Part shown: positions 25,111 through 51,864 of the stretch, piece by piece
Layout: the number at the start of each line of letters is the position of its first letter
How positions within the stretch are numbered: the first letter of the stretch is position 1
Assembly: GCF_030814815.1 (NCBI RefSeq)
Contig: NZ_JAUSVR010000002.1
Location: forward strand, 372,001 to 436,000
DNA: 64,000 bases
Direction of reading: 5' to 3'
DNA from: Ancylobacter amanitiformis
GTDB taxonomy: Bacteria; Pseudomonadota; Alphaproteobacteria; Rhizobiales; Xanthobacteraceae
The notes under the pieces: model-generated
Told to the model about the DNA's origin: nothing
What the model saw: only the letters and a program-made list of their open reading frames with translations
Databases searched by the model: none
Translations under genes and position numbers: made by a program

Positions 25111-26115
25111 GTGCTCAGGCTCGGTTACAAGGCGTCGGCGGAACAGTTCGACGCGCGCGCGCTGCTCGACTTCACGGTGGAGGCGGAGCGCCGCGATTTC
25201 GATTCGGTCTTCATCAGCGATCATTTCCAGCCCTGGCGGCACACGGGCGGGCACGCGCCGGCGGCCTTGCCCTGGCTCGGCGCGGCGGGTGCGGCGACCT
25301 CGCGCATCGTGCTCGGCACCAGCGTGCTGACCCCGACCTTCCGCCATCACCCCGCCATGGTGGCGCAGGCCTTCGGCACGCTCGGCCAGCTTTTTCCCGG
25401 CCGCCTCATCCTCGGCGTGGGGTCGGGCGAGTCGCTCAATGAGGTGCCGGCCACCGGCGCGCCCTGGCCGGAGCTGAAGGAGCGCTTCGCCCGCCTGCGC
25501 GAGGCGGTGCGGCTCATCCGCCAGCTCTGGAGCGAGGAGCGCGTCAGCTTCGAGGGCGAGTTCTACCGCACCGAGCGCGCCACGATCTACGACCGCCCGC
25601 AGACCCCGGTGCCGATCTATGTCGCCGGCGCTGGGCCGATGGTGGCGAAATTCGCCGGCCGCGCGGGCGACGGCTTCATCTGCACCAGCGGCAAGGCGTG
25701 GGACCTCTATCGCGAGACATTGCTGCCCAATGTCGCCGCCGGTCTTGAAGCCGCCGGTCGTTCGGCCGACACTTACGACCGCATGATCGAGATGAAGCTG
25801 TCCTTCGATACCGACCGGGAACGCGCCTTGCAGGACACGCGGCACTGGGCGGCGCTGGCCCTGACGCCGGAGGAAAAAATGTCGGTCGAGGACCCTCTGG
25901 AAATGGAGAAACTGGCCGATGCGCTGCCGCTGGAGCGGGCGGCACGGCGCTGGATCGTCTCCAGCGACCCGGATGACGTGGTGGAGCGCGTGCGGCCCTA
26001 TGTGGAACTCGGCTTCAATCATCTGGTCTTCCACGCGCCGGGCGAGGATCAGGCGCGCTTTCTGCGGCTGTTCGCCGAACACGTGGCGCCGCGCCTGCGC
26101 GCGGCCTTCACCTGA
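25111..26115 (+). CDS. fgd: F420-dependent glucose-6-phosphate dehydrogenase
   Basis: FGD oxidises glucose 6-phosphate to 6-phosphogluconolactone and reduces coenzyme F420, the main source of F420H2 in mycobacteria. The 334-residue protein is close to the mycobacterial size of 336 and opens with [12 protein letters not shown]. By alignment from memory, the catalytic histidine (H38 in SDHFQPWR), W42 and the acid-base glutamate (E106 in GSGES) are kept. So are the phosphate-binding positions in [20 protein letters not shown] and [12 protein letters not shown]. The start is GTG, placed by GGGGAGG 5 nt upstream; GTG at 25093 is less likely. It leads an operon with cofE-cofD-cofC, only 6 bp before cofE. 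FGD is unusual outside actinobacteria. Confidence 0.92.
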
Positions 26116-26121
26116 GCCCGC

Positions 26122-26883
26122 ATGAGCGTGCCGCCCCGGATCGAACTTCTCGCGCTGGATGGGCTGCCGCTGGTTCAGCCGGGCGATGACCTCGCCGGGC
26201 TGATCGCGGCCGCGCTGGACCGCGCCGGGCTGGTGCTGCGCGTGGGCGATGTGCTGGTCGTCGCCCAGAAGATCGTCTCCAAGGCGGAGGGGCGCCGGGT
26301 CGCGCTGGCCGATGTCACGCCCTCCGTGCCGGCGCTGGCGCTGGCGCAGCAGGTGGGCAAGGATGCGCGCCTCGTCGAGCTCATCCTGCGCGAGAGCCGG
26401 CGCGTGGTGCGCAAGGCGCCGGGCGTGCTCATCGTCGAGCACCGGCTGGGGCTCGTCATGGCCAATGCCGGTATCGACCAGTCCAATGTCGAGGACGGCT
26501 TCGCGCTGCTGCTGCCGGAGGATCCCGATGCCAGCGCCGAGCGGCTGCGCGCGCGGCTGGCTCCTTCGGCGGGGATGAGGCTTGGAATCGTCATCAATGA
26601 CAGTTTCGGCCGGCCCTGGCGGCGTGGCACGGTGGGCACCGCCATCGGCGCCGCCGGCCTGCCGGCGCTGGTGGACCGGCGCGGCGAGGCCGATCTGTTC
26701 GGCCGCCCGCTGCAGGTGACGATGATCGCGCTGGCCGATGAAATCGCCGCCAGCGCCTCGCTTTTGATGGGGCCGGCGGCGGAGGGGCTGCCAGTGGTGC
26801 TGCTGCGCGGCGTTCCGTGGTCGGCCCCGGCCAGCCCGGTGCGCGCGCTTCTCCGACCCGCGAACGAGGACCTGTTTCGATGA
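26122..26883 (+). CDS. cofE: Coenzyme F420-0:L-glutamate ligase
   Basis: CofE adds glutamate residues to F420-0 using GTP. The 253-residue protein has the stand-alone archaeal-type length. It shows the family segments RVGDVLVVAQKIVSKAEGR near residue 45, the NAGIDQSNVE motif at about 115, VINDSFGRPWRRGTVGTAIG at about 155 and the C-terminal LRPANEDLFR. The FMN-binding C-terminal domain of actinobacterial FbiB is absent, so reduction of a dehydro-F420 intermediate is not encoded here. The stop overlaps the cofD start. Confidence 0.95.
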   Translation: MSVPPRIELLALDGLPLVQPGDDLAGLIAAALDRAGLVLRVGDVLVVAQKIVSKAEGRRVALADVTPSVPALALAQQVGKDARLVELILRESRRVVRKAPGVLIVEHRLGLVMANAGIDQSNVEDGFALLLPEDPDASAERLRARLAPSAGMRLGIVINDSFGRPWRRGTVGTAIGAAGLPALVDRRGEADLFGRPLQVTMIALADEIAASASLLMGPAAEGLPVVLLRGVPWSAPASPVRALLRPANEDLFR

Positions 26884-27845
26884 GCGCGATCTCCTTTCCC
26901 GGCAAGGTGGTGGCGCTGTCGGGCGGCATTGGCGGCGCCAAGCTGGCCCTGGGCCTCGACCGCGTGCTCGCGCCCGGCCAGTTGACCGTGATCGCCAATA
27001 CGGGCGACGATTTCCGCCATTTCGGCCTCCATATCTCTCCCGACATCGACACGCTGCTCTACACGCTGTCCGGCCTCGACGACCCGGTGCGCGGCTGGGG
27101 GCGCCGGGACGAGACCTGGACCTTCATGCGCGCCATGGGCGAACTCGGGCGGGAAAGCTGGTTCCAGCTGGGCGACGGCGATCTCGCCATTCACGTCGAG
27201 CGCACCCGCCGGCTCGCGGCCGGCGAGACGCTCTCCGGCATTACCGATTTCCTGAGCCGGCAACTCGGCATCGGCTCGGTGATCGTTCCGATGAGCGACG
27301 ACCCGGTGGCGACGCAGGTCGATACCGAGGAGGGCCGGCTCGACTTCCAGCAATATTTTGTCCGCCGGCGCTGCGAGCCGCGCATTGTCGGCCTCGATTT
27401 CGCGGGGGCGGACGAGGCGCGCCTGGCCTCCGGCGCGGCGGCGGCGCTGGCGGACCCCGATCTCGCCCTCATCGTCATCTGCCCGTCCAACCCCTATCTG
27501 AGCGTCGACCCGATCCTCGCCGTGCCGGGGCTGCGCGCGGGGCTGCGGGCGGCGCGTGCGCCGGTCGTCGCCGTCTCGCCCATCATCGCCGGGCAGGCGG
27601 TGAAGGGGCCGACCGCCAAGATGATGATGGAGCTTGGGCTTGTGCCCTCGGCCGCGACCGTCGCCCGCCATTATGCCGGGCTGATCGACATGTTCGTGGT
27701 GGACGAGGCGGATGCCGGCATGGACGCCGACATGGATGCCGGGGCGGGGGTGCGCATGGTGGCGGCACCCACGCTGATGCGCACGCTGGATGACCGGACG
27801 CGCCTCGCCCGGATCGTGCTCGGCCTCGCGGGGGAGCGCGCGTGA
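26880..27845 (+). CDS. cofD: 2-phospho-L-lactate transferase (F420-0 forming)
   Basis: CofD (FbiA) transfers the phospho-lactyl or related moiety from its guanylylated donor to FO. The 321-residue protein begins with the family motif VVALSGGIGGAKLALGL and has NTGDDFRHFGLHISPDIDTLLY. Further blocks are GWGRRDETWTFM, LGDGDLAIHVER, the CPSNPYLSVDPILAVPG motif and the SPIIAGQAVKGPTAKMM region. A short Met/Asp/Ala-rich insert (around DADMDAGAG) lies near the end. The ATG overlaps the cofE stop, and its stop overlaps the GTG start of cofC. Confidence 0.96.
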   Translation: MSAISFPGKVVALSGGIGGAKLALGLDRVLAPGQLTVIANTGDDFRHFGLHISPDIDTLLYTLSGLDDPVRGWGRRDETWTFMRAMGELGRESWFQLGDGDLAIHVERTRRLAAGETLSGITDFLSRQLGIGSVIVPMSDDPVATQVDTEEGRLDFQQYFVRRRCEPRIVGLDFAGADEARLASGAAAALADPDLALIVICPSNPYLSVDPILAVPGLRAGLRAARAPVVAVSPIIAGQAVKGPTAKMMMELGLVPSAATVARHYAGLIDMFVVDEADAGMDADMDAGAGVRMVAAPTLMRTLDDRTRLARIVLGLAGERA

Positions 27846-28513
27846 GCGCGGCGCGGGCTGGCCGTGATATCCTCGCGGTGGTGCCGGTCAAGGATTTCGC
27901 GCTGGCCAAGCAGCGCCTTTCCGGCGCCTTTCCGCCCTCGTTCCGGCATGCCCTGGCGCGGGCCATGCTGTGCGACGTGCTGATCGCGCTGCGCGGAGCG
28001 GAGGCGATCGCCGGCATCGTCGTCGTCACCGCCGATCCGGAGGCGGGGTTGCTCGCGGGCGAATATGGCGCGCGGCTGCTGTTCGAGGGCGCGGTGCGCG
28101 GCCTCAACCCCGCTGTCGCCCAGGCCGGCGCCTATCTCGCGGCCGAGCGGCGCAGCGGCATGCTGGTCGTGCCCTCCGACATTCCCGCCGTGACCTCCGA
28201 CGAGATCGCCCGGCTGGTCGCCGCGCATCCGCCCGGGCGGGCGGTGAGCGTGGTGCCGGCGCATGACCGCGAGGGTACCAACGCGCTGGTCGTCTCGCCG
28301 CCGGATGGGCTGCGATTCTCCTTCGGCCCGCTCAGCTTTCCCATGCATCTCGCCAATGCCCGCGAGGCGCAGGCCGCGCTGCAGGTGCATGAACTCGCGC
28401 AGTTTCCCGGCCTCGCCCGCGACATCGACCGGCCCGAGGACCTGGCGCGGCTCGACCGGTTGCCGCCCGGCTCGCACACACGGCGCCTGCTGGCCGAGCA
28501 GGGCATGGCGTAG
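27842..28513 (+). CDS. cofC: 2-phospho-L-lactate guanylyltransferase (FbiD/CofC)
   Basis: CofC activates the three-carbon acid donor (2-phospholactate, phosphoenolpyruvate or 3-phosphoglycerate depending on lineage) with GTP for CofD. The 223-residue nucleotidyltransferase has the N-terminal VVPVKDFALAKQRLSGAF with the nucleotide-binding lysine. It also shows VPSDIPAVTSDEI, DREGTNALVVSPP, a GLRFSFGPLSFPMH block and DIDRPEDLARL near the end. It starts at GTG overlapping cofD and is the last gene of the fgd-cofEDC operon. Which donor acid it prefers cannot be read off by eye. Confidence 0.94.
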   Translation: MSAARAGRDILAVVPVKDFALAKQRLSGAFPPSFRHALARAMLCDVLIALRGAEAIAGIVVVTADPEAGLLAGEYGARLLFEGAVRGLNPAVAQAGAYLAAERRSGMLVVPSDIPAVTSDEIARLVAAHPPGRAVSVVPAHDREGTNALVVSPPDGLRFSFGPLSFPMHLANAREAQAALQVHELAQFPGLARDIDRPEDLARLDRLPPGSHTRRLLAEQGMA

Positions 28514-28660: not shown

Positions 28661-28863
28661 CCATGCGCGGCTGCGGCGGGTGGCGACGAGCGGGTGGGAC
28701 AGGCCCGCTCATAATCGCGGCAGCCCCTGCCTTAGGGATGAATATTTGAGCAGCGTGCGATTTGAATAAGGTATCAAAATACCAGTCATACGGAGTGTCT
28801 ATACACCAGCACACTTTGGCACAGAACTTGGATTACTCATCGGCATAGCCTGTGGAGTGCCCG
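28661..28863 (+). promoter_or_regulatory. Promoter/operator region of the ABC transporter operon
   Basis: This leader is AT-richer than the flanks. It holds an inverted repeat GGTAT-CAAA-ATACC (28770-28783) and GTGTCTATACAC (28795-28806), whose core GTCTATAC fits the GT-N-TA-N-AC consensus of HutC-type GntR regulators. A sigma-54-like box TTGGCAC-N5-TTGG lies at 28816-28831; its -12 dinucleotide is GG instead of GC, so it is imperfect. A GGAG ribosome-binding site precedes the ATG of the first gene. The GntR/UTRA regulator encoded at 45.9 kb is a candidate ligand of the operator. Confidence 0.4.
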
Positions 28864-29964
28864 ATGTCGTCCATCGCTTTCGTGTCCGTCGGCAAGCGTT
28901 ACGGGGAGGTGGAAGCCGTGAGCCGGCTCGACCTTTCCTGCGCGGCGGGTGAGATGCTGGCGCTGCTCGGCCCATCCGGCTGCGGCAAGTCGACCACGCT
29001 GAAAATGGCGGCGGGCATCGAGAGCGTCACCGAAGGCGAGATCTGGTTCGGCGAGCGCCCCGTCTCGCGCCTTGCCCCGGGCGAGCGCAACATCGCCATG
29101 GTGTTCGAGGACTACGCGCTCTACCCGAACATGACGGTGTGGGAGAATGTCGCCTTCCCGCTGAAGATACGCGGCATTACCGGCCAGCCCGCCGCCGCGC
29201 GCATCGGCGAGGTGCTGCAGCTGCTCGGCCTGCGGCAGATGGCCGACAGCCATGTGAAGGGGCTGTCCGGCGGCGCCCAGCAGCGCGTCGCGATCGGCCG
29301 CGCGCTGGTGCGCGACCCGGAAGTCATTCTGTTCGACGAGCCGCTCTCCCATCTCGACGCCGACCAGAAGGTGCAGCTGCGCGCCGAGATCAAGCGGCTG
29401 CAGAAGCTGCGACAGGTGACGTCCATCCTCGTCACCCATGACCAGACCGAGGCCATCGCCATGGCCGACCGGGTGGCGGTGATGAACCACGGCGTACTGC
29501 AGCAGGTCGGCGCGCCGCAGGAACTCTACGAGCGCCCCGCCAACCTGTTCGTGGCCAACTTCATCGGCGAGCCGCCCATGAACCTGATGGCGGCGGAGTT
29601 CACGCAGGGCGGGCGCATCCTCGGCGCGGGCTGGTCGGCAGTGATCGAGGCCGTGCGGCTTCCGGCGCTGACGGCGGGCGGCGGGCCGCTGATTGCCGGC
29701 ATCCGGCCGGAGAACATCGCGGTGCGCGCGCCGGACATGGCGGGCGAGGCCCGCGGCACCATCACCTATCGTGAGCCGAGGGGCGACGCCGATGTGCTGA
29801 CCGTCGCGCTGGAGGCGCCGGGCGGGCCGGGCGGCCAGCTTGTCGCCGAGATCGCCGGCCCATCGCCATGGCGGACGGGCGACCGTGTCGCGCTCGGCAT
29901 CGATGTGCGCAAGCTGCTCGTCTTCGATGAACCGACCGGCCGCAACCGGGAGGCGCTGCCATGA
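28864..29964 (+). CDS. ABC transporter ATP-binding protein 1 (sugar/polyol type)
   Basis: First gene of a five-gene importer; 366 residues in the MalK/UgpC class. Walker A is GPSGCGKST, Walker B is VILFDEPLSHLD and the switch histidine is present in VTHDQTEA. Two positions deviate: the Q-loop reads VFEDYALYP (glutamate for glutamine) and the signature is LSGGAQQRV (alanine in place of the last glutamine). A C-terminal OB-fold regulatory domain follows from about residue 235. The start after the GGAG site was preferred over GTG at 28852. It overlaps the second ATPase gene (ATGA), suggesting a heterodimer; see that entry. Confidence 0.9.
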   Translation: MSSIAFVSVGKRYGEVEAVSRLDLSCAAGEMLALLGPSGCGKSTTLKMAAGIESVTEGEIWFGERPVSRLAPGERNIAMVFEDYALYPNMTVWENVAFPLKIRGITGQPAAARIGEVLQLLGLRQMADSHVKGLSGGAQQRVAIGRALVRDPEVILFDEPLSHLDADQKVQLRAEIKRLQKLRQVTSILVTHDQTEAIAMADRVAVMNHGVLQQVGAPQELYERPANLFVANFIGEPPMNLMAAEFTQGGRILGAGWSAVIEAVRLPALTAGGGPLIAGIRPENIAVRAPDMAGEARGTITYREPRGDADVLTVALEAPGGPGGQLVAEIAGPSPWRTGDRVALGIDVRKLLVFDEPTGRNREALP

Positions 29965-31121
29965 GCATGGTCATGAGCGCCATCACCCCGCCCGGCCTGA
30001 TGGCGCGGGGCATCGCCAAGAGCTTCGCGAAAGCGAAGGCTGATCCGCACAAGGTGCTGCACGAAATCGGCATCGAGGTCGGCCCCGGCGAACTGGTCGC
30101 CATTACCGGTCCCTCCGGGGCGGGCAAGAGCACGTTCTGCCGCATTCTCGCGGGGCTGGAGCGGCCGGATGCCGGCACGGTGACGCTGGCCGGGCGCGAT
30201 CTTGGCACGGTGCCCGCCGGCCAGCGCCGCGTCGCGCTGATGTTCGAGAGCTACGCGCTCTATCCTCACCTCACCGTGCGCGGCAACGCGCTCTCGCCGT
30301 TGCAGGCGCCGGGGGGCAGGCTCGCCCCGGCGCAGGCGCAGAAGCGGGTCGACGAGGTTCTGGAACTGCTGGAGATCCGGCACCTTGGAGAGCGCCTGCC
30401 CGGCGCGCTCTCGGGCGGGCAGAAGCAGCGCGTGGCGCTGGCCCGCACGCTGGTGCAGGTGCCGGACCTCTTTCTGCTGGACGAGCCGATATCCCATCTC
30501 GACGCCAAGCTGCGCCACAAGCTGCGCGGGGAAATCCGTCGCCGCCTGTCCGCCCAGAGCGCGCCCTGCATCTGGGCGACGCCGGACGGGATGGAGGCGC
30601 TCTCGGTCGGCGATCGCGTGGTGGTGCTCGATCAGGGGCGGGTCGAGCAGGTCGGTACGCCGGAGGAAATCTGGCAGCGGCCGGCCAGCGCGCGCGTCGC
30701 CCGGCTGCTGGGCGACCCGCCGATGAACCTGATCGAGGGAACGCTGACGCGCGCGGCGGACACGCTCTATGTCACCCGCCGCGACATGCGCCTCGCCCTG
30801 CCGCCCGCGCTCGCCGTGGCCGCCGCCCGCCATGGCACGGACAGCGTCATCCTGGGCGTGCGCCCGGACGGCCTTTCCTTCGCGCCGGCCGGCGCGCCCG
30901 GCACGGTCGCGGCGGAGATCTATTCCAACGAACCGTTCGGCAAGCACGCCATCGTCACGATCGATCTCGGCGCGCTGCTGGCCAAGGTGAAAACCTCGAT
31001 GGCCGCCGCTGCCGCGCTGGGCGCGGATGGCGGCATCGGCCGGGGCGTTGGCATCACCTTTCCCGCCGAGGGGCTGTCGCTCTTCGACGGCGCGACCGGC
31101 CGGGCACTGGCCGGCACCTGA
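29961..31121 (+). CDS. ABC transporter ATP-binding protein 2, lacking the switch histidine
   Basis: Second ATPase of the importer, 386 residues. Walker A GPSGAGKST, signature LSGGQKQRV and Walker B LFLLDEPISHLD are normal. The Q-loop again has glutamate (MFESYALYP), and the H-loop reads ATPDGMEA, with proline where ATPase 1 has histidine. In a heterodimer the site formed by ATPase 1 Walker motifs and this LSGGQ would be canonical, and the other site degenerate. The arrangement of two ATPases recalls the glycerol transporter GlpST of Rhizobium, but the substrate here is unknown. A C-terminal OB-fold domain follows. The ATG overlaps the previous stop. Confidence 0.9.
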   Translation: MSMVMSAITPPGLMARGIAKSFAKAKADPHKVLHEIGIEVGPGELVAITGPSGAGKSTFCRILAGLERPDAGTVTLAGRDLGTVPAGQRRVALMFESYALYPHLTVRGNALSPLQAPGGRLAPAQAQKRVDEVLELLEIRHLGERLPGALSGGQKQRVALARTLVQVPDLFLLDEPISHLDAKLRHKLRGEIRRRLSAQSAPCIWATPDGMEALSVGDRVVVLDQGRVEQVGTPEEIWQRPASARVARLLGDPPMNLIEGTLTRAADTLYVTRRDMRLALPPALAVAAARHGTDSVILGVRPDGLSFAPAGAPGTVAAEIYSNEPFGKHAIVTIDLGALLAKVKTSMAAAAALGADGGIGRGVGITFPAEGLSLFDGATGRALAGT

Positions 31122-31162
31122 GACGCATAAGCCGCTAACGGCACATACAGAGGGAAAGAGCG

Positions 31163-32575
31163 ATGAAGCGTAAGATCTGGTGTTTCGCCGCCGCCTTGGC
31201 GGCAACGACGGCGCTGAGCGCGTCGGCCCTGCATCCGGCCATGGCGCAGGACGCGAGCTTCTATGCGGAAGCGGCCAAGCCCTACAAGGGCACCACCATC
31301 CGCGTGCTGGACGAGATCACCCCGCTGCAGGAGACGCTCTCCAAGATCGTGCCGGATTTCGAGAAGGAAACCGGCATCAAGGTCGAGTGGGAGCTGCTCA
31401 ACCATTTCGAGGTGATCAACAAGGGCCAGGCCGACATGCTGTCGGGCCGCGGCTATTATGATGCGATCATGCTGCACGGCTCCCAGCTCGGCCCGATGCT
31501 GTCGGCCGGCGTGATCGCGCCGATCGATGCCTATGTGGCCAATGCCAAGCTCGCCGATCCCGCGATGAACGATCACGACTTCATCCAGACACCGTACAAG
31601 ACCACCGCGTTCAGCGGCGGCAAGCAGTACGGCTTCATCAACTGGAACTACAACCACGTCTACTGGGCGCGCGCCGACCTCCTGAACAACCCGGAGGAAC
31701 AGGCCGCGTTCAAGGCGAAGTACGGCTACGATCTCGCCCCGGCCAAGACCATCGAGCAGATGCGCGACATCGCGCAGTTCTTCACACGCAAGAAGGGCGC
31801 GCTGCTGGCCGGCAAGCCGCTGGAAAGCGATTTCTACGGGATTGTGCTGGAGGGCATCAAGGGCGGCTCGACCTTCTCCAACCTCTGGGTGAACTTCATC
31901 CAGAACTATGGCGGCGACGTGCTGGACAAGGACGGCAAGCCGGTCTTCGACAGCCCGCAGACCGTTGCCGCGCTGACCATGTGGCGCGAATTGTGGACCT
32001 ATGCCCCGCCCGGCATCGCTGAATATTCGCTGGTCGACGTGCCGACCGTGATGGGCAATGGCATCGCCGCGCAGTCTCTGGCCTGGTCGGACTTCGTCCT
32101 CGGCATCGACAAGCCGGGCGTGTCGCCCTACGCGGGCAAGTTCGTCTATGCCCCGGTGCCCGCCAAGGCCGGCAACGAGGCCAAGCGCCATGCCGATGCC
32201 GAGCCCTCGGTGACGGTGATCAGCGCCGCGTCCAAGAACCCGGAAGCCACCTTCCTGTTCCTGGAATGGCTGGCCTCCAAGCGCCAGCAGGACAAGCTGA
32301 TCGAGATGGGCCAGGGCGGCGTGCCGATCCGCGAAAGCTCCTGGGCTCTGCCGGCGATCAAGGACGCCTCCAACTCCACGCTGTTTGCGGCGATGAAGTC
32401 CTCGCTCGCGGTGGCCTCGGCGCGACCGAAAATGGAGAAGTACCCGGAAATGTTCGACGCCATGAGCGGCATCGCCCAGCAGGTCGGCCTCGGCAAGATG
32501 ACGCCGGAAGAGGGCGCCAAGCAGGGCCAGGCCATCCTCGTGAAGCTCTGCGGCGGCAAGTCCTGCACGATCTGA
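31163..32575 (+). CDS. Extracellular solute-binding protein, family 1
   Basis: Periplasmic binding protein of the importer, 470 residues. The signal peptide spans about 1-29 (AMA-Q cleavage). The mature protein has the family-1 pattern: IRVLDEITPLQETLSKIVPDFEKETGIKVEWE near the start, GYYDAIMLHG, then WNYNHVYWARADLL in the hinge/ligand region. The C-terminal half holds ISAASKNPEATFLFLEWLASKR. Many tryptophan and tyrosine residues suggest an aromatic-lined site, as in sugar/polyol binders, though ring compounds would also fit. It sits between the ATPase and permease genes. A palindromic repeat follows its stop. Confidence 0.9.
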   Translation: MKRKIWCFAAALAATTALSASALHPAMAQDASFYAEAAKPYKGTTIRVLDEITPLQETLSKIVPDFEKETGIKVEWELLNHFEVINKGQADMLSGRGYYDAIMLHGSQLGPMLSAGVIAPIDAYVANAKLADPAMNDHDFIQTPYKTTAFSGGKQYGFINWNYNHVYWARADLLNNPEEQAAFKAKYGYDLAPAKTIEQMRDIAQFFTRKKGALLAGKPLESDFYGIVLEGIKGGSTFSNLWVNFIQNYGGDVLDKDGKPVFDSPQTVAALTMWRELWTYAPPGIAEYSLVDVPTVMGNGIAAQSLAWSDFVLGIDKPGVSPYAGKFVYAPVPAKAGNEAKRHADAEPSVTVISAASKNPEATFLFLEWLASKRQQDKLIEMGQGGVPIRESSWALPAIKDASNSTLFAAMKSSLAVASARPKMEKYPEMFDAMSGIAQQVGLGKMTPEEGAKQGQAILVKLCGGKSCTI

Positions 32576-32602
32576 GGATACGGCCTCTGATGGTTCCGAA
32601 AT

Positions 32603-32625
32603 CCCTCTCCCCACAGGGGAGAGGG
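32603..32625. repeat. Dispersed CCCTCTCCCC palindrome, short copy
   Basis: A perfect 10-bp inverted repeat (CCCTCTCCCC-ACA-GGGGAGAGGG) in the gap between the binding-protein and first permease genes. It is a half-length member of the family seen at 33628, 35591 and 52869, and could form a hairpin in the mRNA that separates binding-protein from permease expression. Confidence 0.75.
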
Positions 32626-32682
32626 AAAAGAAGACGTCGCCCGAAGACCTTTTGCCCGAAGTGTTGAGGAACCGGCATTCCC

Positions 32683-33612: not shown

Positions 33613-33627
33613 AGACTTACTTTCTTT

Positions 33628-33738
33628 CCTCTCCCCAATGGGGAGAGGTGGCCCGCGTAGCGGGTCGGTGAGGGGGTTTCGCGATTGCGGAGCGTCGAAG
33701 GCCCCTCACCCCAACCCTCTCCCCGACGGGGAGAGGGA
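33628..33738. repeat. Dispersed CCTCTCCCC repeat, full-length copy
   Basis: A composite element between the two permease genes. It has a CCTCTCCCCAATGGGGAGAGG palindrome at one end, then GTGGCCCGCGTAGCGGGTCGG and a GTGAGGGG box. At the far end lie CCCCTCACCCCAACC and a second palindrome CCCTCTCCCC-GAC-GGGGAGAGGG. The element as a whole can fold on itself. The copy at 35591-35700 has the opposite orientation. Confidence 0.85.
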
Positions 33739-34613: not shown

Positions 34614-34623
34614 GGAACCGCGA

Positions 34624-44473: not shown

Positions 44474-44524
44474 ACCACATTGCCCCATGACACACATTGC
44501 CCCATGAAACGTGTGGCCCCATGA
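44470..44524 (+). other. Chain of three ATGA-coupled six-codon mini-ORFs in a 17-bp tandem repeat
   Basis: Between the FAD-subunit stop and the 2Fe-2S start, four ATGs lie exactly 17 bp apart (44470, 44487, 44504, 44521). Each of the first three opens a 21-nt ORF (peptides MNHIAP, MTHIAP, MKRVAP) whose TGA overlaps the next ATG as ATGA. The first ATG overlaps the stop of the FAD-subunit gene and the last is the start of the fused 2Fe-2S gene. The unit is ATGAACCACATTGCCCC with the third copy diverged. No ribosome-binding site is seen inside the repeats. Confidence 0.85.
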
Positions 44525-45861: not shown

Positions 45862-46614
45862 TCAGCGCAGCAGGTCGACGTCGAGCTGCACGCAGTCGCC
45901 GCGATAGATGATGTCGGCGAGGTAGATCACCACGTCGTTCTCGTCCACCACCACGAGATGCGCCTCCACGGTGGGAAAGCCGATGCCGATGGCGAGCAGG
46001 TTGGCCACGCGCGGCTCCACCGTGCCGACGATGAAGGACTGGCGCGCCTTCTTCACCTGCAGCCCCTCCAGCGTGGCAACGACACTGATGGTCGGCTCGC
46101 GCTCGAAGCGGGTAGGGGCGAGCGCGAGCAACCGCTCGTCGACATGCACCCGCGCGAAGGAATAGGGCTGGCCGCGCCGCGACTGCACGCTTTCCAGGTA
46201 GCGGTAGCGCGGGGCGGGGCTGCCGTCCTCCGGCTGCACGGTGGGCAGCGGCGGGTTGGCGGGCACGGGCAGGAAGCGCGGCACGTTGGCGCCGATGGTG
46301 CCGGCCAGCGAGTGCCATTTGAGATCGAGCTTGAGCCAGCGTTTCTCCTCGACCGAGGCGGAGACGAAGGTGCCCTTGCCCTGGATGCGCCGCACCAGCC
46401 CCTCGCTCTGCAGCACCTCCACTGCCTGGCGCACGGTGACGCGGGCGACGCGGAACTCGGCTTCCAGTTCCTGCAGGGTTGAGATTTTCTCGTTCGGCCC
46501 CCACACACCGTCCTCGATGCGCCGGCGGATGACCCCGGCGACCTGCAGATAGCGCGGCACCGGGCTGCGACGATAATCGGGACTGGTCAGGCCGGAGGGA
46601 GAATCCTTGAGCAT
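45862..46614 (-). CDS. GntR-family transcriptional regulator with UTRA domain (HutC type)
   Basis: A 250-residue repressor-type regulator. The winged helix (about 18-85) shows PRYLQVAGVIRRRIEDGVW, LEAEFRVARVTVRQAVEVLQSEGLV and RIQGKGTFV. A UTRA ligand domain follows, with YSFARVHVDERLLAL, then the VEPRVANLLAIGIGFPTVEAHLVV stretch. The ligand is probably the pathway substrate or an intermediate. The gene follows pxpC on the same strand by about 90 bp. A GTG at 46647 would extend it by 11 residues but has no ribosome-binding site. It is the only DNA-binding regulator seen in the catabolic region, so it likely controls several of its promoters. Confidence 0.88.
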   Translation of the reverse strand: MLKDSPSGLTSPDYRRSPVPRYLQVAGVIRRRIEDGVWGPNEKISTLQELEAEFRVARVTVRQAVEVLQSEGLVRRIQGKGTFVSASVEEKRWLKLDLKWHSLAGTIGANVPRFLPVPANPPLPTVQPEDGSPAPRYRYLESVQSRRGQPYSFARVHVDERLLALAPTRFEREPTISVVATLEGLQVKKARQSFIVGTVEPRVANLLAIGIGFPTVEAHLVVVDENDVVIYLADIIYRGDCVQLDVDLLR

Positions 46615-46692
46615 GGGCAATGTCGGTTCCGATGGCGGCAACGGCACATTCGCGTGCGCAGCCGCGGGTCAGGTCAGAATCGCTGGGGTCTT

Positions 46693-46720
46693 CCTATCTT
46701 CCCTATCATGTAATCCTATC
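46693..46720 (-). promoter_or_regulatory. Three direct GATAGG repeats upstream of the GntR gene
   Basis: Read on the minus strand, GATAGG occurs three times (spacers of 7 and 3 bp), overlapping the last codons and stop of pxpC and lying about 80-105 bp before the regulator ATG. Direct repeats could mark an activator or autoregulatory site; chance is possible. Confidence 0.25.
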
Positions 46721-47776
46721 CATCGCTCCGCGCCCTTCGTCGGATTCCAGCGCCGAAACGACGCCGGAGACCAGATTTTCGCGCAGCAGCGCCTCGAGAT
46801 CGACGCGGGCGAGCGCACGCACGGGCAGGAGCGCGGCGATCTGCTGGGCGACGGCCCGCTCCTGCGCGCGGCGGGCCTCTTCCGCCTGCGCGACGGAGAC
46901 GGCGATGAAGCGCACCGAGGCGCCCGGCAGCAGCCGGCCGGCGGCGGGGAGGTCGGCGGAAATGACCGTGGCGATCTTGGCATAGCCGCCGATCGTCTGG
47001 TGGTCCGCCAGCAGCAGGATGGGCAGTCCCGAGCCCGGCACCTGGATCGAGCCGGTGACGATGCCGTCGGACACGATGTCGGCACCCCGCCGGAAGCCGA
47101 GCGGCGTGCCCTCCAGCCGCAGGCCCATGCGGTCCGCCTCGCGGGAGACGCGATAGGCCGTGCCGAGAAACTCCGCGAGCCCGTCCTCGGTGAACGCGTC
47201 GGCCTGCGGGCCCAGCACCACGCGCAGCGCCCCGCCGAAGGTCAGCGATGGCGGGTTCTGGAGTTCAAGACACGGGCCGTCGAGCGAGGAGGCACCCAGC
47301 GCGATAACGTCGCCCGCCATCAGCGCGCGGCCGAGATGCCCGCCGAACCGGCCCTTGAGATCGGTTGCGCGCGAGCCCAGCACGCACGGCACGTCAATGC
47401 CGCCGGCAAAGGCGAGGATGGCGCTGCCGCTCGCCTTGAGCGGCCCGATCCGCACCCGCGCGCGCTCCGGTATATCGATCGCGCGCCAGGGGCCGAAGCG
47501 CCGCGTCTCCCCGCCCTGCTCCACCTCGATCACGCCATCGGCGCCTGTCAGCGCCAGCCGGGCGGGGCCGCCGGTCACCTCGAAGGCGGGGCCGGCGAGC
47601 CGCAGTTCCAGCGCGGCCGCCCCGGGCTCGTTGCCCACCAGCGCATTGGCGAGCCGCAGCGCGGGCGGATCCAGCGCGCCGCAGACCGGCACGCCAAAGG
47701 CCTGGAAGCCGAGGCGCCCGGCATCCTGCACGCTGGTCTGCGGGCCGGGCTGGAGGATGGCGATTGCCGCGCTCAT
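46706..47776 (-). CDS. pxpC: 5-oxoprolinase subunit PxpC (biotin-dependent carboxyltransferase family)
   Basis: PxpC acts with PxpA and PxpB in ATP-dependent opening of 5-oxoproline (pyroglutamate) to glutamate. The 356-residue protein begins with AIAILQPGPQTSVQDAGRLGFQAFGVPVCGALD, the KipA/PxpC signature. ALRLANALVGNEPGAAALE follows, and later GSGLPILLLADHQTIGGYAKIATVI. The start is the ATG that overlaps the pxpB stop (ATGA). Within this cluster the three subunits might act on another lactam. Confidence 0.92.
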   Translation of the reverse strand: MSAAIAILQPGPQTSVQDAGRLGFQAFGVPVCGALDPPALRLANALVGNEPGAAALELRLAGPAFEVTGGPARLALTGADGVIEVEQGGETRRFGPWRAIDIPERARVRIGPLKASGSAILAFAGGIDVPCVLGSRATDLKGRFGGHLGRALMAGDVIALGASSLDGPCLELQNPPSLTFGGALRVVLGPQADAFTEDGLAEFLGTAYRVSREADRMGLRLEGTPLGFRRGADIVSDGIVTGSIQVPGSGLPILLLADHQTIGGYAKIATVISADLPAAGRLLPGASVRFIAVSVAQAEEARRAQERAVAQQIAALLPVRALARVDLEALLRENLVSGVVSALESDEGRGAMDRIT

Positions 47777-48543
47777 CGGCTCGCCTCGCAATCCGGAACA
47801 TGGGCGCCGCGCGCCACCGCCGCGCGGATCGCCGCATGTTCATCCGGCCCCGCTGGCACGAAGCGTACCCCGTCGCCGGGCGTGAACAGGGTGGGCGGCG
47901 CCCGCGCGGGATCGAAGAAGCGCAGCGGCGTGTGGCCGATCAACCGCCAGCCGCCGGGCGATTCGACGGGATAGATGCCGGTCATGCGCTGGGCGATGGC
48001 GACCGATCCGGCGGGCACCCGCACGCGTGGGCTGGTGAGGCGCGGCAGGTCCAGTTCCGCCGGCAGGTCGCCGAGATAGGCGAAGCCCGGCAGGAAGCCC
48101 TGCACATAGACGCGGTAGACCGTGCCGGCATGGCGGGCGATCACCTCGTCCTCGCCGAGGCCGGTGGCGCGGGCGACATCGCCGAGGTCCGGGCCCGCTT
48201 CGCCGCCATAAAGCACCGGAATGCGCCAGACGCGGGCGGGAGCCTCGACGCGGGCCTCGCCGATGTCGAGCGCGGCAAGGCTCTCCTGAAGCGCGGCGGC
48301 GCAGGTGCGGCGCGGATCGTAATGCACCAGCAGCGAGCGGAAGGTCGGCACCGTCTCGACCATGCCCTCGGGCGGGTGTGCCGCCAGCAGCGCCGCCGTG
48401 CGGTGGACGAGGGCGTTGATCTCTGGCGCGATGACGGTGCCGAACTCCACCGCGAAGGCCGTGTCGCCCAGATCGAGGAAGCGCGCCAGCGCGCCGAGGC
48501 GCCGGGAACCGGCATCGTGCTGCTCCGCCTTCTCTTCCGTCAC
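47773..48543 (-). CDS. pxpB: 5-oxoprolinase subunit PxpB (KipI family)
   Basis: Partner subunit of 256 residues, cyclophilin-like fold. Family blocks are FLDLGDTAFAVEFG, VPTFRSLLVHYDP, YVQGFLPGFAYLGDLP, SPRVRVPAGSVAIAQRMTGIYPVESPGGWRLIGHTPLRFFDP and the terminal PGDGVRFVP. It starts at GTG with GGAG about 8 nt before, and is divergent from pxpA across a short region with a perfect palindrome. Confidence 0.92.
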   Translation of the reverse strand: MTEEKAEQHDAGSRRLGALARFLDLGDTAFAVEFGTVIAPEINALVHRTAALLAAHPPEGMVETVPTFRSLLVHYDPRRTCAAALQESLAALDIGEARVEAPARVWRIPVLYGGEAGPDLGDVARATGLGEDEVIARHAGTVYRVYVQGFLPGFAYLGDLPAELDLPRLTSPRVRVPAGSVAIAQRMTGIYPVESPGGWRLIGHTPLRFFDPARAPPTLFTPGDGVRFVPAGPDEHAAIRAAVARGAHVPDCEASR

Positions 48544-48568: not shown

Positions 48569-48588
48569 TCATCCTAATGTTAGGATGA
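48569..48588. promoter_or_regulatory. Perfect 20-bp palindrome between pxpB and pxpA
   Basis: TCATCCTAATGTTAGGATGA has 9-bp arms around TG and lies between divergent pxpBC(-gntR) and pxpA-fbiC. A further GGAT at 48562 adds a third half-site. Such a site at a divergent promoter beside a GntR gene is a good candidate operator. Confidence 0.5.
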
Positions 48589-48656
48589 TTGAGCTTGAAA
48601 TGCATTACCAGATAATGTGTTAATCGTGGACGTGAACAGTGATCAGGAGGTTGCCC

Positions 48657-49433
48657 GTGGCCGTGCGCATCAACATCAACGCCGATATGGGCGAGGGCTA
48701 CGGTCACTATCGGATCGGCAATGACGACGAGATCCTCACCCTTGTGCAGAGCGTCAATGTCGCCTGCGGCCTGCATGGCGGCGACGCCACGGTCATGCGC
48801 GAGGTCTGCCTCAAGGCGAAGGAGAACGGCGTCTCCATCGGCGCCCATCCCGGCTTCAACGACATCTGGGGTTTCGGCCGCCGGCAGATCCGCATGAGCC
48901 CGGCCGATCTCGAATATCTCGTGGCCTATCAGCTCGGCGCGCTGGCCGGCATGGCGGCCTATGCCGGCACCAAGGTGACGCATGTGAAGCCGCATGGCGC
49001 GCTCAACAACATGGCCGCCATCGACAAGAGCTATGCGCTGGCGATCGGGCGGGCGATCCGCACGGTCGATCCCTCGCTCTATTATCTCGCGCTGTCCGGA
49101 TCGGCGATGGAGACGGCGGCGCTGGAACTCGACCTGCCGCTGGCGCGTGAGGCCTTCATCGACCGGCTCTATGATGACGCGGGCAACCTGCTCACCCGCA
49201 CCGACCCGCGCGCGGTGATCAAGGATCCCGCGATCGCGGCGGAGCGCACGGTGCGCATGGTGCTGGACGGCGAGATCATCTCGGTCGACGGCAAGCCGCT
49301 GCCGACCCGGTTCGATTCGCTCTGCGTGCATGGCGACGAGCCGACCGCCATCGCGGTGGCGCGTGCCGTGCGCGGCGCGCTGGAGGAGGCCGGCGTCGAA
49401 CTGGTGACGCTGCCCGAGAAGATGAGGGGCTAG
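48657..49433 (+). CDS. pxpA: 5-oxoprolinase subunit PxpA (LamB/YcsF family)
   Basis: A 258-residue subunit with the LamB/YcsF fold. It opens with RININADMGEGYGHYRIGNDDEIL, followed by SVNVACGLHGGDATVMREV, IGAHPGFNDIWGFGRRQI and THVKPHGALNNMA, all family hallmarks. The C-terminal CVHGDEPTAIAVARAV is also typical. An AGGAGG site 7 nt before GTG 48657 decides the start over GTG 48639. It is separated from fbiC by only 4 bp, so F420 precursor synthesis and lactam hydrolysis are co-transcribed. Older literature names this family lactam utilisation protein. Confidence 0.92.
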   Translation: MAVRININADMGEGYGHYRIGNDDEILTLVQSVNVACGLHGGDATVMREVCLKAKENGVSIGAHPGFNDIWGFGRRQIRMSPADLEYLVAYQLGALAGMAAYAGTKVTHVKPHGALNNMAAIDKSYALAIGRAIRTVDPSLYYLALSGSAMETAALELDLPLAREAFIDRLYDDAGNLLTRTDPRAVIKDPAIAAERTVRMVLDGEIISVDGKPLPTRFDSLCVHGDEPTAIAVARAVRGALEEAGVELVTLPEKMRG

Positions 49434-49437
49434 GGCG

Positions 49438-51864
49438 ATGGTGCCGGCGGAAGGGCTCCCCGGCGGCGAAACGCTCGCCCGCGAGGCGGCGCTGGCGCTG
49501 GCCGGCGCGGGCGACCTCGCCGCGCTGATGCGGGCGGCGGCGCAGATGCGCGATGCCGGCTTCGGCGCCACCGTCACCGTCTCGCGCAAGGTCTTCATCC
49601 CGCTCACCCAGCTGTGCCGCGACGTTTGCCATTACTGCACCTTCGCCCATGCCCCGCGAAAGGGGCAGCGCGCCTTTCTCCGGCCTGACGAGGTGCTGGC
49701 CATCGCCCGCGCCGGCGCGCAGATGGGCTGCGACGAGGCGCTGTTCACCCTCGGCGACAAGCCGGAGCAGCGCTACGCCCTGGCCCGCGAGGAACTGGCG
49801 ACGCTGGGCTTCGCCACGACGCTGGACTATCTCGCCGCCATGGCCGGGCTTGTGCTGCGCGAGACCGGTCTTCTGCCTCACCTCAATGCCGGGGTGATGG
49901 CGGCGGCGGATCTGGCGCGCCTGCGCACGGTGTCGGCGTCGCAGGGGCTGATGATCGAGACGACCGCCGAGCGGCTTTCGGCGCGCGGCGGTCCGCATTT
50001 CGGCTCGCCCGACAAATGGCCGCAAGCGCGCCTCGCCACGCTGGAGGCGGCCGGTCGCGCGGGCGTGCCGTTCACAACGGGGCTGCTGATCGGCATCGGC
50101 GAGACGCGGGTGGAACGCATCGAAGCGCTGCTGGCCATTCGCGACAGCCACGCGCGGCACGGCCATGTGCAGGAAGTGATCATCCAGAATTTCCGCGCCA
50201 AGCCGGGCACGAAGATGGCCGGCGCGCCCGAACCCTCGCTGGACGACCATCTGTGGACCGTCGCGGTGGCGCGGCTGATCCTCGGCCCGGCCATCTCGCT
50301 CCAGGCGCCGCCCAACCTGCAGCCGGAGGGGCTGAAGGCGCTGATCGATGCCGGGATCAATGATTGGGGCGGCGTCTCGCCGGTCACGCCCGACCACGTG
50401 AATCCCGAAGCGCCGTGGCCGGCGCTCGCCGCGCTCGCCGCCGCCACCGCGCGTGCCGGAAAGGTACTCAGTCCCCGGCTCGCGGTCTATCCCGCCTATA
50501 TCGAGGATCGCGCGCGCTGGCTGGATCCGGCCGTCGCGCCGCTCGTGCTGCGCCGCGCCGATGGCGCGGGTCTCGCCCATGAAGGCGGCTGGCGTGTCGG
50601 CGCGCCGGAGGCCCGCGTGGTCGAATGGCCCGCCGCACCGGCCATTGCCGGGCCGGAGACGGTGCTGGAGGCGGTGCTCGACAAGGCGGTCGCCGGCCGC
50701 GCGCTCGATGAGGGCGAGATCGTCGCGCTGTTCGACGCGCGGGGCAGCCGGGCGCAGCGGGTCTTCGCGGCGGCGGATGCGCTGCGGCGCGCGGTGGTGG
50801 GCGACACGGTGTCCTATGTCGTCACGCGCAACATCAACTACACCAATGTCTGCGCCCATAAATGCGGCTTCTGCGCCTTCTCCAAGGGGCGCCAGCACGA
50901 GCATCTGCGCGGCCGGCCCTATGAGCTGGATCTGGACGAGATCCAGCGCCGGACCCGTGAGGCATGGGCGCGCGGGGCGACCGAAGTGTGCATGCAGGGC
51001 GGCATCCACCCGGATTTCTCCGGCGACACCTATCTCGCCATCCTGCGGGCGGTGAAGCGGGCGGTGCCGGACATGCATGTCCATGCCTTCTCGCCGCTGG
51101 AAGTGCGCCATGGCGCGGCGACGCTCGGCCTCTCCGTGCCGGATTTCCTCCTCGCGCTGAAGCAGGCGGGCCTCGGCTCGCTGCCGGGAACGGCGGCGGA
51201 AATCCTTGACGACGAGGTGCGCGCACGGCTTTGCGCGGACAAGCTGACCACGCGGGAATGGCTGGAGACAGTGGCCGCCGCCCATCGCGTCGGCCTCAGG
51301 ACCACGTCGACCATCATGTTCGGCCATGTCGATGGCTACCGGCACTGGGCGCGCCATCTCCTCCGGCTGCGCCAATTGCAGGCCGAGACCGGCGGCATCA
51401 CCGAATTCGTGCCGCTGCCCTTCCTGCACATGGAAGCGCCGCTCTATCTCAAGGGCGGCACGCGGGCCGGCCCCAGCCGGCGCGAGGCACTGCTGATGCA
51501 TGCGGTGGGGCGGCTGGCGCTCAACCCGCTCATCCCCAACATCCAGGCATCCTGGGTCAAGCTGGGGGAGGGCGGCCTTGTCGCGGCGCTGGCGGCGGGG
51601 GCCAATGACAGCGGCGGCACCTTGATGGATGAATCGATCAGCCGCGCCGCCGGCGGCGTGCACGGGCAGGAATTTCCGCCCGACCGGATGGAAGCGGCGA
51701 TCCGCGCGGCCGGCCGCCTCGCCCGGCAGCGCACCACGCTCTATGGCGAGGCGCCCTCGCGGCAGAAGCAGCGTTCCTATGCGGCGGACGCGCTGACGCC
51801 GCGCGTCGAGCCGGCGGCGGGCAAGTTCGCGCGCGTGGGGAGCCTGGCGGCGCGCGGCGGGTGA
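49438..51864 (+). CDS. fbiC: FO synthase, bifunctional CofG-CofH fusion
   Basis: FbiC makes FO, the deazaflavin chromophore of F420, from tyrosine and 5-amino-6-ribitylaminouracil. The 808-residue protein holds two radical-SAM domains: CofG-like (about 40-370) with LTQLCRDVCHYCTFAHAPR, and CofH-like (about 460-780) with YTNVCAHKCGFCAFSKGR. The CofG part has TLGDKPEQRY and GLLIGIGETRVERIEAL; the CofH part has VCMQGGIHPDFSGDTYL, TAAEILDDEVR and SWVKLG. Fused FbiC is typical of actinobacteria and some proteobacteria, while archaea have separate proteins. It completes the F420 pathway begun by cofCDE 21 kb away. Confidence 0.96.
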   Translation: MVPAEGLPGGETLAREAALALAGAGDLAALMRAAAQMRDAGFGATVTVSRKVFIPLTQLCRDVCHYCTFAHAPRKGQRAFLRPDEVLAIARAGAQMGCDEALFTLGDKPEQRYALAREELATLGFATTLDYLAAMAGLVLRETGLLPHLNAGVMAAADLARLRTVSASQGLMIETTAERLSARGGPHFGSPDKWPQARLATLEAAGRAGVPFTTGLLIGIGETRVERIEALLAIRDSHARHGHVQEVIIQNFRAKPGTKMAGAPEPSLDDHLWTVAVARLILGPAISLQAPPNLQPEGLKALIDAGINDWGGVSPVTPDHVNPEAPWPALAALAAATARAGKVLSPRLAVYPAYIEDRARWLDPAVAPLVLRRADGAGLAHEGGWRVGAPEARVVEWPAAPAIAGPETVLEAVLDKAVAGRALDEGEIVALFDARGSRAQRVFAAADALRRAVVGDTVSYVVTRNINYTNVCAHKCGFCAFSKGRQHEHLRGRPYELDLDEIQRRTREAWARGATEVCMQGGIHPDFSGDTYLAILRAVKRAVPDMHVHAFSPLEVRHGAATLGLSVPDFLLALKQAGLGSLPGTAAEILDDEVRARLCADKLTTREWLETVAAAHRVGLRTTSTIMFGHVDGYRHWARHLLRLRQLQAETGGITEFVPLPFLHMEAPLYLKGGTRAGPSRREALLMHAVGRLALNPLIPNIQASWVKLGEGGLVAALAAGANDSGGTLMDESISRAAGGVHGQEFPPDRMEAAIRAAGRLARQRTTLYGEAPSRQKQRSYAADALTPRVEPAAGKFARVGSLAARGG

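Follow-up and report, generated by a model that had tools for sequence, protein, structure and literature searches.

Coenzyme F420 genes of Ancylobacter amanitiformis lie in a proposed catabolic locus with a candidate F420H2-dependent oxidoreductase and a predicted shared operator

Results

F420 biosynthesis and reduction genes of the locus

The window analyzed here is a 64-kb stretch of the genome of Ancylobacter amanitiformis (positions 372001-436000 of contig C2 in a 4.84-Mb assembly, designated G000; G codes denote genomes and L codes denote fetched loci). It carries genes for the biosynthesis and reduction of coenzyme F420 among catabolic genes with which, we propose, they form one system (Table 1). 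A sequence-only reading of this DNA had described an fgd-cofE-cofD-cofC operon and a fused fbiC about 21 kb further on. All five genes were found there (20,925 bp separate the end of cofC from the start of fbiC), and all five exceed the cutoffs of the NCBIfam equivalog models by which family calls on F420 genes were made. The coding frames are backed by GC3-based gene calling. For cofD, the ATG at 26880 is preferred over the longest-ORF (open reading frame) start at 26817 (ORF 26817-27845), and there are 4-nucleotide overlaps at both the cofE/cofD and the cofD/cofC junctions. FbiC has two CX3CX2C motifs, while CofE aligns over its length with the archaeal CofE 2phn and has no FbiB-type C-terminal domain.

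The assignment of FGD and CofE to these families, and not to unrelated ones, also held: in addition to the equivalog scores, FGD falls among Ancylobacter sequences. Its nearest relatives are Ancylobacter FGDs (81 to 86% identity), and a quick tree of 87 FGDs groups it with six Ancylobacter rows (Shimodaira-Hasegawa-like approximate likelihood ratio test, 99), in agreement with the alphaproteobacterial setting given earlier. By an alignment mapped by eye, the window FGD has D43, H44, W48, E113, T198, K201, K262, and R286, and is thus identical at 8 of 8 positions to what we take to be the FGD1 active-site set of F420 and glucose-6-phosphate contacts. A gene that we presume, from its motif, to resemble that of 6-phosphogluconolactonase lies near fgd in seven loci (L033, L041, L047, L048, L050, L051, and L060), an arrangement that would suit an FGD acting on glucose-6-phosphate.

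Within the genus, fgd and fbiC are 21 to 35 kb apart on one contig in 16 of 19 other fgd genomes; they are far apart in G398 and on different contigs in G392 and G409. In four fgd loci from Rhizobiaceae and Phyllobacteriaceae (L008, L011, L012, and L024), two ORFs of ~383 and ~447 amino acids match the halves of FbiC, and there is no fused fbiC.

Table 1. Genes and predicted regulatory sites of the window discussed in the text (positions are those of the 64-kb stretch)
Feature	Position	Strand	Support
fgd	25093..26115	+	TIGR03554, 499 bits (cutoff 420)
cofE, F420-0:glutamate ligase, stand-alone (without nitroreductase domain)	26122..26883	+	TIGR01916, 295 bits (cutoff 180.65)
cofD, 2-phospho-L-lactate/PEP transferase	26880..27845	+	TIGR01819, 295.7 bits (cutoff 257.45)
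cofC guanylyltransferase	27842..28513	+	TIGR03552, 147.4 bits (cutoff 105)
ABC importer: two MalK-type ATPases, solute-binding protein, two permeases	28852..34613	+	Pfam
FmdA/AmdA-like amidase	34624..35565	+	PF03069
Second xanthine-dehydrogenase-family large subunit	38750..41056	-	PF02738/PF20256
xdhL, xanthine-dehydrogenase-family molybdenum subunit	41226..43649	+	PF02738/PF20256
FAD subunit of Mo-hydroxylase	43646..44473	+	PF00941; 51-57% identity in islands
2Fe-2S subunit fused to CoxG-like domain	44497..45708	+	PF01799+PF06240; 43-44% identity in islands
GntR/UTRA regulator (HutC-like), proposed reader of the palindrome	45862..46647	-	PF00392+PF07702; 41-42% identity to Sinorhizobium island GntR
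PxpC-like carboxyltransferase-domain subunit (cyclic-amide hydrolase complex)	46706..47791	-	PF02626
PxpB-like subunit	47773..48543	-	PF02682
18-bp palindromic operator (predicted), between pxpB and pxpA-fbiC	48570..48587		31.1 bits
PxpA-like (LamB/YcsF), 4 bp upstream of fbiC	48639..49433	+	PF03746
fbiC (CofG-CofH fusion), FO synthase	49438..51864	+	NF006687, 1143.7 bits (cutoff 1018)
LLM oxidoreductase, proposed F420H2 user, tail-to-tail with fbiC	51903..52850	-	TIGR03619, 202.1 bits (cutoff 166.9)
GctB-like CoA-transferase beta subunit, conserved Glu	52985..53827	-	best PDB match 1poi_B, E 1.2e-47
GctA-like CoA-transferase alpha subunit	53808..54839	-	best PDB match 1poi_A, E 8.6e-44
PALP, fold-II PLP enzyme	54814..56307	-	PF00291, 45.1 bits (cutoff 35)
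Second operator copy (predicted), upstream of PALP-gctA-gctB-LLM	56362..56379		16.9 bits
Second Mo-hydroxylase small subunits: 2Fe-2S (frame 56723-57661) and FAD (57675-58487)	56723..58487	+	PF01799/PF00111; PF00941

A luciferase-like oxidoreductase is a candidate user of F420H2

The sequence-only reading had also expected a linked reductase and a candidate user. By family, the reductase is a true FGD, and the user candidate is a gene that the reading left unnamed: it encodes a luciferase-like (LLM) oxidoreductase and is convergent to fbiC. All 12 LLM proteins of the genome were classified, and only two, FGD and the protein next to fbiC, pass the cutoff of an F420-labeled NCBIfam model. Seven of the other ten pass cutoffs of other families (four of them FMN-labeled), and three pass none.

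To place these genes in a wider context, we used one even sample of 385 alphaproteobacterial genomes, where the searches for cofD, FGD, and Fno scored just the top few candidates of each genome. LLM orthologs (E value of 1e−50 or better) occur in six genomes (G000, G007, G060, G200, G229, and G312), which have six different family codes and are all cofD-positive (hypergeometric test, P = 1.0e−5; P = 6.8e−5 without the window). The orthologs of the other five genomes are 61 to 67% identical to that of the window; the one in G312 begins a 10-kb contig and is unmatched in its N-terminal part. Two of the six genomes have fgd, three have fno, and one has neither; the LLM therefore tracks F420 and not its reducer.

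These observations make F420H2 a candidate cofactor of the LLM. They also bear on the possibility that the enzyme depends on FMN and merely hitchhikes with F420 genes. In a Foldseek search with its AlphaFold2 model (pLDDT of 89.5), the top eight chains are luciferases and flavin monooxygenases and FGD appears only at ranks 9 and 10, and the best PDB sequence matches are luciferase-like enzymes, followed by the F420 enzyme Mer; both results speak for FMN. Conversely, the orthologs co-occur with cofD in 6 of 6 genomes, and the window LLM and the six orthologs scanned (179.7 to 208.8 bits) all score above the cutoff of TIGR03619, although this model is a subfamily label and not proof of a cofactor. 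On balance, we regard FMN dependence as quite unlikely. The structural model is good, but FMN and F420 enzymes are not distinguished by the fold search, which was set aside as a cofactor test; a PHROGs scan of the LLM was uninformative.

Other kinds of F420 users were also sought in the genome. There was no match to the Ddn-type family PF04075, a search that was silent in control genomes too, so that absence is not established. Of five matches to the PNPOx-type family PF01243, one is pdxH, one belongs to an FMN-labeled family, and three are unassigned at an E value of 1e−20.

A predicted operator is shared by fbiC and LLM operons

An 18-bp palindrome lies between pxpB and pxpA at the same place in all 18 fetched fgd-type loci of the genus (G409, the nineteenth fgd genome, is left out of this set), the weakest being that of L132 (6 mismatches to the consensus, 14.2 bits). 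We built a matrix from 16 of the genus pxpB/pxpA sites, leaving out the window, L117, L132, and L136, and scanned with a threshold of 14 bits; Markov shuffles gave expectations of 0.00 to 0.17 matches per locus. The 64-kb window has two matches only (expected 0.03): the site at 48570, which is orthologous to the training sites, and a second one at 56362, ahead of the PALP-gctA-gctB-LLM operon. Of the 18 genus loci, 17 have this second site, which stands in front of PALP in 16 of them and in front of gctA in L134; L133, which has no module of these genes, is without it.

The matrix trained on the genus also finds sites in the islands of Sinorhizobium and of two same-genus genomes (G394 and G408), where they precede fno-cofEDC-fbiC, CoA-transferase-LLM, and molybdenum (Mo)-enzyme genes, with up to 35.6 bits. 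There are seven matches in L190 (expected 0.10), six in L191 (0.10), three each in L135 and L136 (0.07), and one each in L186 (0.13) and L183 (0.00). In L190, from Sinorhizobium meliloti, all seven are intergenic and lie before the genes for LivH, npdG, CoA-transferase (two sites), transhydrogenase, Mo-enzyme, and solute-binding protein. Of the six sites in S. fredii, one (7201) is inside a called amidohydrolase ORF whose start may be set too early. In L135 and L136, one site precedes fno, one precedes PALP, and one is at the xdhL start; in L136, xdhL faces pxpA. The single site of G007 is between PALP and pxpB and that of G200 is between pxpB/C and pxpA. When the matrix columns were permuted with the palindrome kept, the summed matches over six loci averaged 1.06, compared to 20 observed, and none of 200 permutations reached that number. 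In 87 control F420 loci without the module (1,351,259 bases), there were five matches, three of them in L175; the best has 18.6 bits, and none reaches 20 bits.

The palindrome is probably read by the GntR/HutC-like protein encoded at 45862-46647. In G394, palindrome matches lie close to the start of a GntR gene (L187, 7080-7916), in keeping with GntR as the reader but no proof of it. The GntR of this region (L187, 7080-9601) is 46% identical to that of the window and 55% identical to that of Sinorhizobium, and a palindrome match is also found there before a transhydrogenase gene.

A shared operator upstream of fgd was considered and dropped: none was found in the window or in L002 to L006, and L007 has one weak match of 12.2 bits. 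A conserved stretch around CATATTGTGCTGCA precedes fgd in L002 to L004 and is slightly altered in the window (24990-25092), while a related TAATGTGCTGGACAATAG stretch precedes fgd in L005 to L007; such stretches possibly belong to another regulator.

The LLM module accompanies F420 genes of different lineages

PALP, gctA, gctB, and LLM occur together in G000, G007, G060, G200, and G229 and in the same-genus genomes G394 and G408. Among the 18 fgd-type genus loci, pxpA and fbiC are together in all 18, gctAB-LLM lies beside fbiC in 17, and a full PALP is present in 16; L134 has only a match to a C-terminal PALP fragment (5369-5587), before gctA.

G394 and G408 have no fgd match and instead carry the gene order fno-cofE-cofD-cofC-fbiC-PALP-gctA-gctB-LLM, which lies between a Mo-hydroxylase (64 to 65% identical to the window XdhL) and an M20 deacylase. 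Within ~13 kb past the LLM, G394 also has genes for LivHMGF, a solute-binding protein, a diaminopropionate ammonia-lyase homolog, a transhydrogenase, and GntR. The same genes, partly rearranged, make up islands in Sinorhizobium. On pSymA of S. meliloti R28, a compact island is annotated with npdG, cofD, cofC, cofH, CoA-transferases, a TIGR03619 LLM, a transhydrogenase, xanthine dehydrogenase subunits, and GntR; cofE is missing from this annotation table, and the R14 island is annotated with more gaps. The island of S. fredii SMH12 is unannotated, has the gene order of S. meliloti, and shows cofE. The LLM is also present in S. meliloti GR4. Where R14 has an annotated diaminopropionate ammonia-lyase gene, R28 has two shorter ORFs (L190, 31570-32763).

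In a quick tree of CofE plus CofD from 78 loci, G394 and G408 group with S. fredii (93, within a starred set that includes L028) and apart from the window. F420 genes of separate descent are thus joined by related catabolic genes. This bears on whether F420 is a general redox or stress cofactor of the genus whose catabolic neighbors are coincidental. Such a role would agree with the unrelated-looking genes that separate fgd-cofEDC from fbiC, with the position of fgd-cofEDC beside an ABC importer, as in all six named Ancylobacter loci, with its lack of the operator, with the lack of an fbiC match (E value of 1e−100) in 8 of 30 genus genomes, and with L133, which retains F420 genes and has none of PALP, gctAB, or LLM nearby. 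Yet related LLM, gctAB, and xdh sets stand beside the F420 genes of different lineages (the window and fgd-type Ancylobacter versus G394/G408 and S. fredii), the operator is shared, and the genome has no further F420-labeled LLM above a cutoff. We consider coincidental neighbors unlikely. The catabolic genes between and after the F420 genes, which the sequence-only reading had mentioned by position, include several that belong with F420 by co-occurrence, synteny, or the shared operator.

Fgd and Fno are alternative reducers

We found cofD in 59 of the 385 genomes (58 above the cutoff), and the gene set is therefore not supported as a rarity in this class. FGD is above its cutoff in 9 genomes and Fno in 46, all of them within the 59 cofD-positive genomes and never both in one (Fisher's exact test, P = 5.7e−8, with genomes treated as independent). 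Four cofD-positive genomes have neither reducer above the cutoff, two of which have a weak or partial Fno match. In the genome of the window, every one of the 29 Fno candidates was scored, and each fell short (best, 25.4 bits; cutoff, 149.8). At the genome level, we view fgd and fno as alternatives.

They also tend to share a place in the operon. In 31 loci fetched from cofD-positive genomes other than the fgd set, fno stands just ahead of cofE and in the same orientation in 28, and cofD follows cofE in 27. The arrangement differs in L155, where the stretch has fno but no cofE; in L166, which has no fno; in L175, where fno comes after cofE; and, with respect to cofD alone, in L176. In the window and the six named Ancylobacter loci, fgd is ahead of cofE, and fgd-cofE-cofD are in a row in four of the eight other sampled fgd genomes. 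The reducer is thus interchangeable, with fno usually occupying the operon slot of fgd. Because the CofE-CofD tree needs at least 10 changes of the fgd/fno label (6 by its starred branches alone), the reducer seems to have been swapped several times.

The F420 gene content of the window is by itself of a known, ordinary kind. A 2021 review, in its available text, names Fgd and Fno as predicted reducers; in its entry for Alphaproteobacteria, Fgd carries a question mark (PMC8498797). The F420 producers Paracoccus denitrificans and Oligotropha carboxidovorans described there have the same biosynthesis families as the window, which differs in that its F420 genes are tied to catabolic genes, a candidate user, and an operator. 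The novelty lies in this context, together with the recurring company of LLM, CoA-transferase, and Mo-enzyme genes and with the mutual exclusion of fgd and fno in the sample.

The cofactor is expected to be classical F420

The best PDB match of CofC is 7p97, an enzyme for 3-phosphoglycerate (3-PG), which raised the possibility of 3PG-F420; the protein was also aligned to 6bwg. In Mycetohabitans, Ser162 is the residue diagnostic of 3-PG-activating CofC, according to the portion of the study available (PMC8764529). At this position, where a 3PG-F420-type CofC needs Ser or Thr, the window has Gly, as do 71 of the 72 CofC proteins of the fetched loci (window included); one has Ala. Since Gly and not Ser occupies the position, we rejected a CofC of the 3PG-F420 type and expect the cofactor to be classical F420.

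The set of F420 genes had been called complete, and FbiC, CofC, CofD, CofE, and FGD are all encoded. Whether it is complete depends on the route to the lactyl group: the 2-phospholactate route does without a dehydro-F420 reductase, and the phosphoenolpyruvate (PEP) route needs one. In a search of the genome for this reductase (TIGR03553; cutoff, 249.55), there were two matches, of 60.2 and 18 bits, both rejected as FbiB-like reductases because they are far below the cutoff. The weaker one is nitroreductase-like, and the stronger one is a protein that we take to be BluB, beside what appear to be cobalamin genes. A pathway that ends at 7,8-didemethyl-8-hydroxy-5-deazariboflavin (FO) or yields 3PG-F420 would accord with the absence of a clear dehydro-F420 reductase from this search and with the match to 7p97. 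We regard it as very improbable, given that CofE, CofD, and FGD are all encoded and given the Gly at the Ser162 position.

Catabolic genes of the window

The ABC importer adjoins cofC in all six named Ancylobacter loci (L002 to L007). Between cofC and the importer genes of the window, there is a 15-bp tandem repeat (28573-28659; 5.8 copies, 95% match).

The counterparts of XdhL are 63 to 65% identical in the islands of Sinorhizobium (L190 and L191) and of G394/G408 (L135 and L136). In L028, from a Methylobacteriaceae metagenome-assembled genome, an xdhL homolog (1992-4373, minus strand; 63% identical to that of the window) is divergent beside fgd-cofE-cofD. A second large subunit and a second small-subunit pair, which may together form another Mo-hydroxylase, lie ~16 kb apart and on opposite strands. 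We had considered the ORF at 56400-57110 as the 2Fe-2S subunit, but Pfam places that subunit in the neighboring frame.

The catalytic Glu of the GctB-like subunit is conserved in 27 of 27 sequences, many of which are close relatives. Such a Glu in the beta subunit is what we take to be the mark of class I glutaconate-type CoA-transferases, and the window pair fits it. PALP, a fold-II pyridoxal phosphate (PLP) enzyme, was compared with the diaminopropionate ammonia-lyase of S. fredii and rejected as its counterpart, with no meaningful similarity. A GMC oxidoreductase gene is also near the F420 and LLM genes of the window.

Elsewhere in the window, a beta-lactamase-fold gene and a radical SAM-SPASM gene stand in one run (5971-9087; Pfam), presumably a pqq cluster, and one protein (10425-11264, minus strand) has both SoxY and SoxZ domains.

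Discussion

We consider it likely that the locus is an F420-dependent catabolic system, in which F420 is made on demand for a reductive pathway and the LLM is the F420H2 user. Gene families, linkage, co-occurrence, the operator sequence, and the interchangeable reducer were computed. FbiC, CofC, CofD, and CofE would make F420, Fgd would reduce it with glucose-6-phosphate, and the LLM would spend F420H2 on one catabolic step, with a xanthine-dehydrogenase-family Mo-hydroxylase, a PxpABC-type cyclic-amide hydrolase, a fold-II PLP enzyme, and a glutaconate-type CoA-transferase as partners. A GntR/HutC-type repressor on the palindrome would switch the pxpA-fbiC and PALP-gctAB-LLM operons jointly, so that F420 would be made when the substrate is present.

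Several observations weigh against this interpretation. The hypergeometric test of LLM and cofD takes genomes as independent, and 53 of the 59 cofD-positive genomes have no LLM ortholog, so F420 has other uses too. The LLM modules of G060, G229, and G200 do not adjoin cof genes, and in those of G060 (L185) and G229 (L184) there is no operator match of at least 14 bits. The control matches, of up to 18.6 bits, overlap the weaker island matches (from 14.8 bits), and L190/L191 and L135/L136 are pairs of close relatives and not independent. No operator match precedes fgd-cofEDC or xdhL in the window, so co-regulation is seen there only for pxpA-fbiC and the LLM operon. Finally, a search of the window gave no counterpart of the M20 deacylase, dihydroorotase, or diaminopropionate ammonia-lyase known from the other islands, and by its score the dihydroorotase of S. 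meliloti is an ordinary PyrC. Hence, the window may have a different pathway, or PyrC may be no part of it.

From the enzymes present, we infer the class of substrate and the order of reactions, as we did the cofactor of the LLM and the pairing of regulator and operator. The substrate is probably an N-heteroaromatic compound, as suggested by the combination of Mo-hydroxylase, cyclic-amide hydrolase, PLP enzymes, and CoA-transferase. The Mo-enzyme would hydroxylate the ring to give a lactam, the LLM would reduce the ring with hydride from F420H2, and hydrolytic ring opening and CoA activation of the resulting acid would follow.

Related chemistry is known. The nitrophenol npd system of Rhodococcus resembles the window in being a catabolic operon in which an F420 reductase and LLM hydride transferases act on an electron-poor ring; to our knowledge, that operon contains no F420 biosynthesis genes. 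The nicotinate pathway of Azorhizobium, also an alphaproteobacterium, starts with Mo-hydroxylation. It proceeds by partial ring reduction and hydrolytic opening via glutarate, as far as described in the available text of two reports (PMC3511419, PMC9304392), and in relatives of this cluster the 6-hydroxynicotinate reductase is a homolog of the E. barkeri enzyme (PMC3511419), not an F420 LLM.

It is also possible, if rather less so, that the F420 genes cooperate with the LLM, CoA-transferase, and Mo-enzyme sets on some other electrophile, such as a carbonyl or an unsaturated acyl compound. The chemistry of LLM enzymes is varied, no enzyme of the window fixes the substrate (FmdA, the GMC oxidoreductase, and PALP are nearby), and GctAB with its conserved Glu points to a carboxylic acid. 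The Mo-hydroxylase, PxpABC, and the PLP enzymes (in S. fredii, diaminopropionate ammonia-lyase), on the other hand, fit a ring nitrogen. So does the comparison with reductive uric-acid clusters, which, in the available text, comprise a xanthine dehydrogenase homolog, a reductase, a cyclic-amide hydrolase, an M20 deacylase, and a PF00291 enzyme, and whose Chloroflexota variant, with similar enzyme classes, has a putative F420 luciferase-family reductase (PMC12507026). The family list given there includes neither GctAB nor F420 biosynthesis genes, unlike the window. Nor is the window itself such a cluster (SsnA, HyuA, YgeY, and YgeX with XDH and a reductase): XDH- and LLM-type proteins are present, M20 and diaminopropionate ammonia-lyase homologs were absent from a search of the window alone, in which SsnA had no model of its own, and there was no PF01979 amidohydrolase among the part of the window ORFs that was scanned with Pfam.

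The gene set also has a counterpart in symbiotic bacteria. A genome-wide association study of nodulation competitiveness in S. meliloti flagged an accessory fbi operon, and its matches include CofD, GctA, GctB, a luciferase-family oxidoreductase, PntA/B, a "caffeine dehydrogenase," LivF, PyrC, and GntR (PMC8407117). This list, as given in the available text, matches the pSymA island of R28 and R14. The window has a related Mo-enzyme, GctAB, LLM, and GntR, with Fgd in place of Fno and with PxpABC and PALP in addition. In the available text, the authors handled the listed genes as separate functions and stated that the role of the fbi operon merits further attention (PMC8407117). Within the open-license literature (most subscription papers are outside this scope), there was no paper with both F420 and Ancylobacter, and, in the text available, none that joins F420, LLM, CoA-transferase, and Mo-enzyme genes into one pathway; the association study comes nearest.

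Extending these observations to Alphaproteobacteria, we tentatively suggest that F420 may be inducible there, its biosynthesis belonging to a GntR-type regulon with one LLM pathway that dearomatizes an N-heteroaromatic compound, and that the reducer (Fgd or Fno, in the same slot) was repeatedly swapped while the user was kept. If true, this would explain the traces of F420 reported for alphaproteobacteria that were cultured without inducer. The exchange of reducers, with at least six changes by starred branches of the CofE-CofD tree, is a case of repeated replacement of a cofactor's reducing enzyme. The purpose of F420 in Proteobacteria becomes directly testable, with one candidate user, one operator, and one candidate regulator in sequenced soil and symbiotic bacteria. 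Because the S. meliloti island matches accessory genes tied to competitive nodulation in the available part of the association study (PMC8407117), the pathway could link an exudate-like nutrient to symbiotic success.

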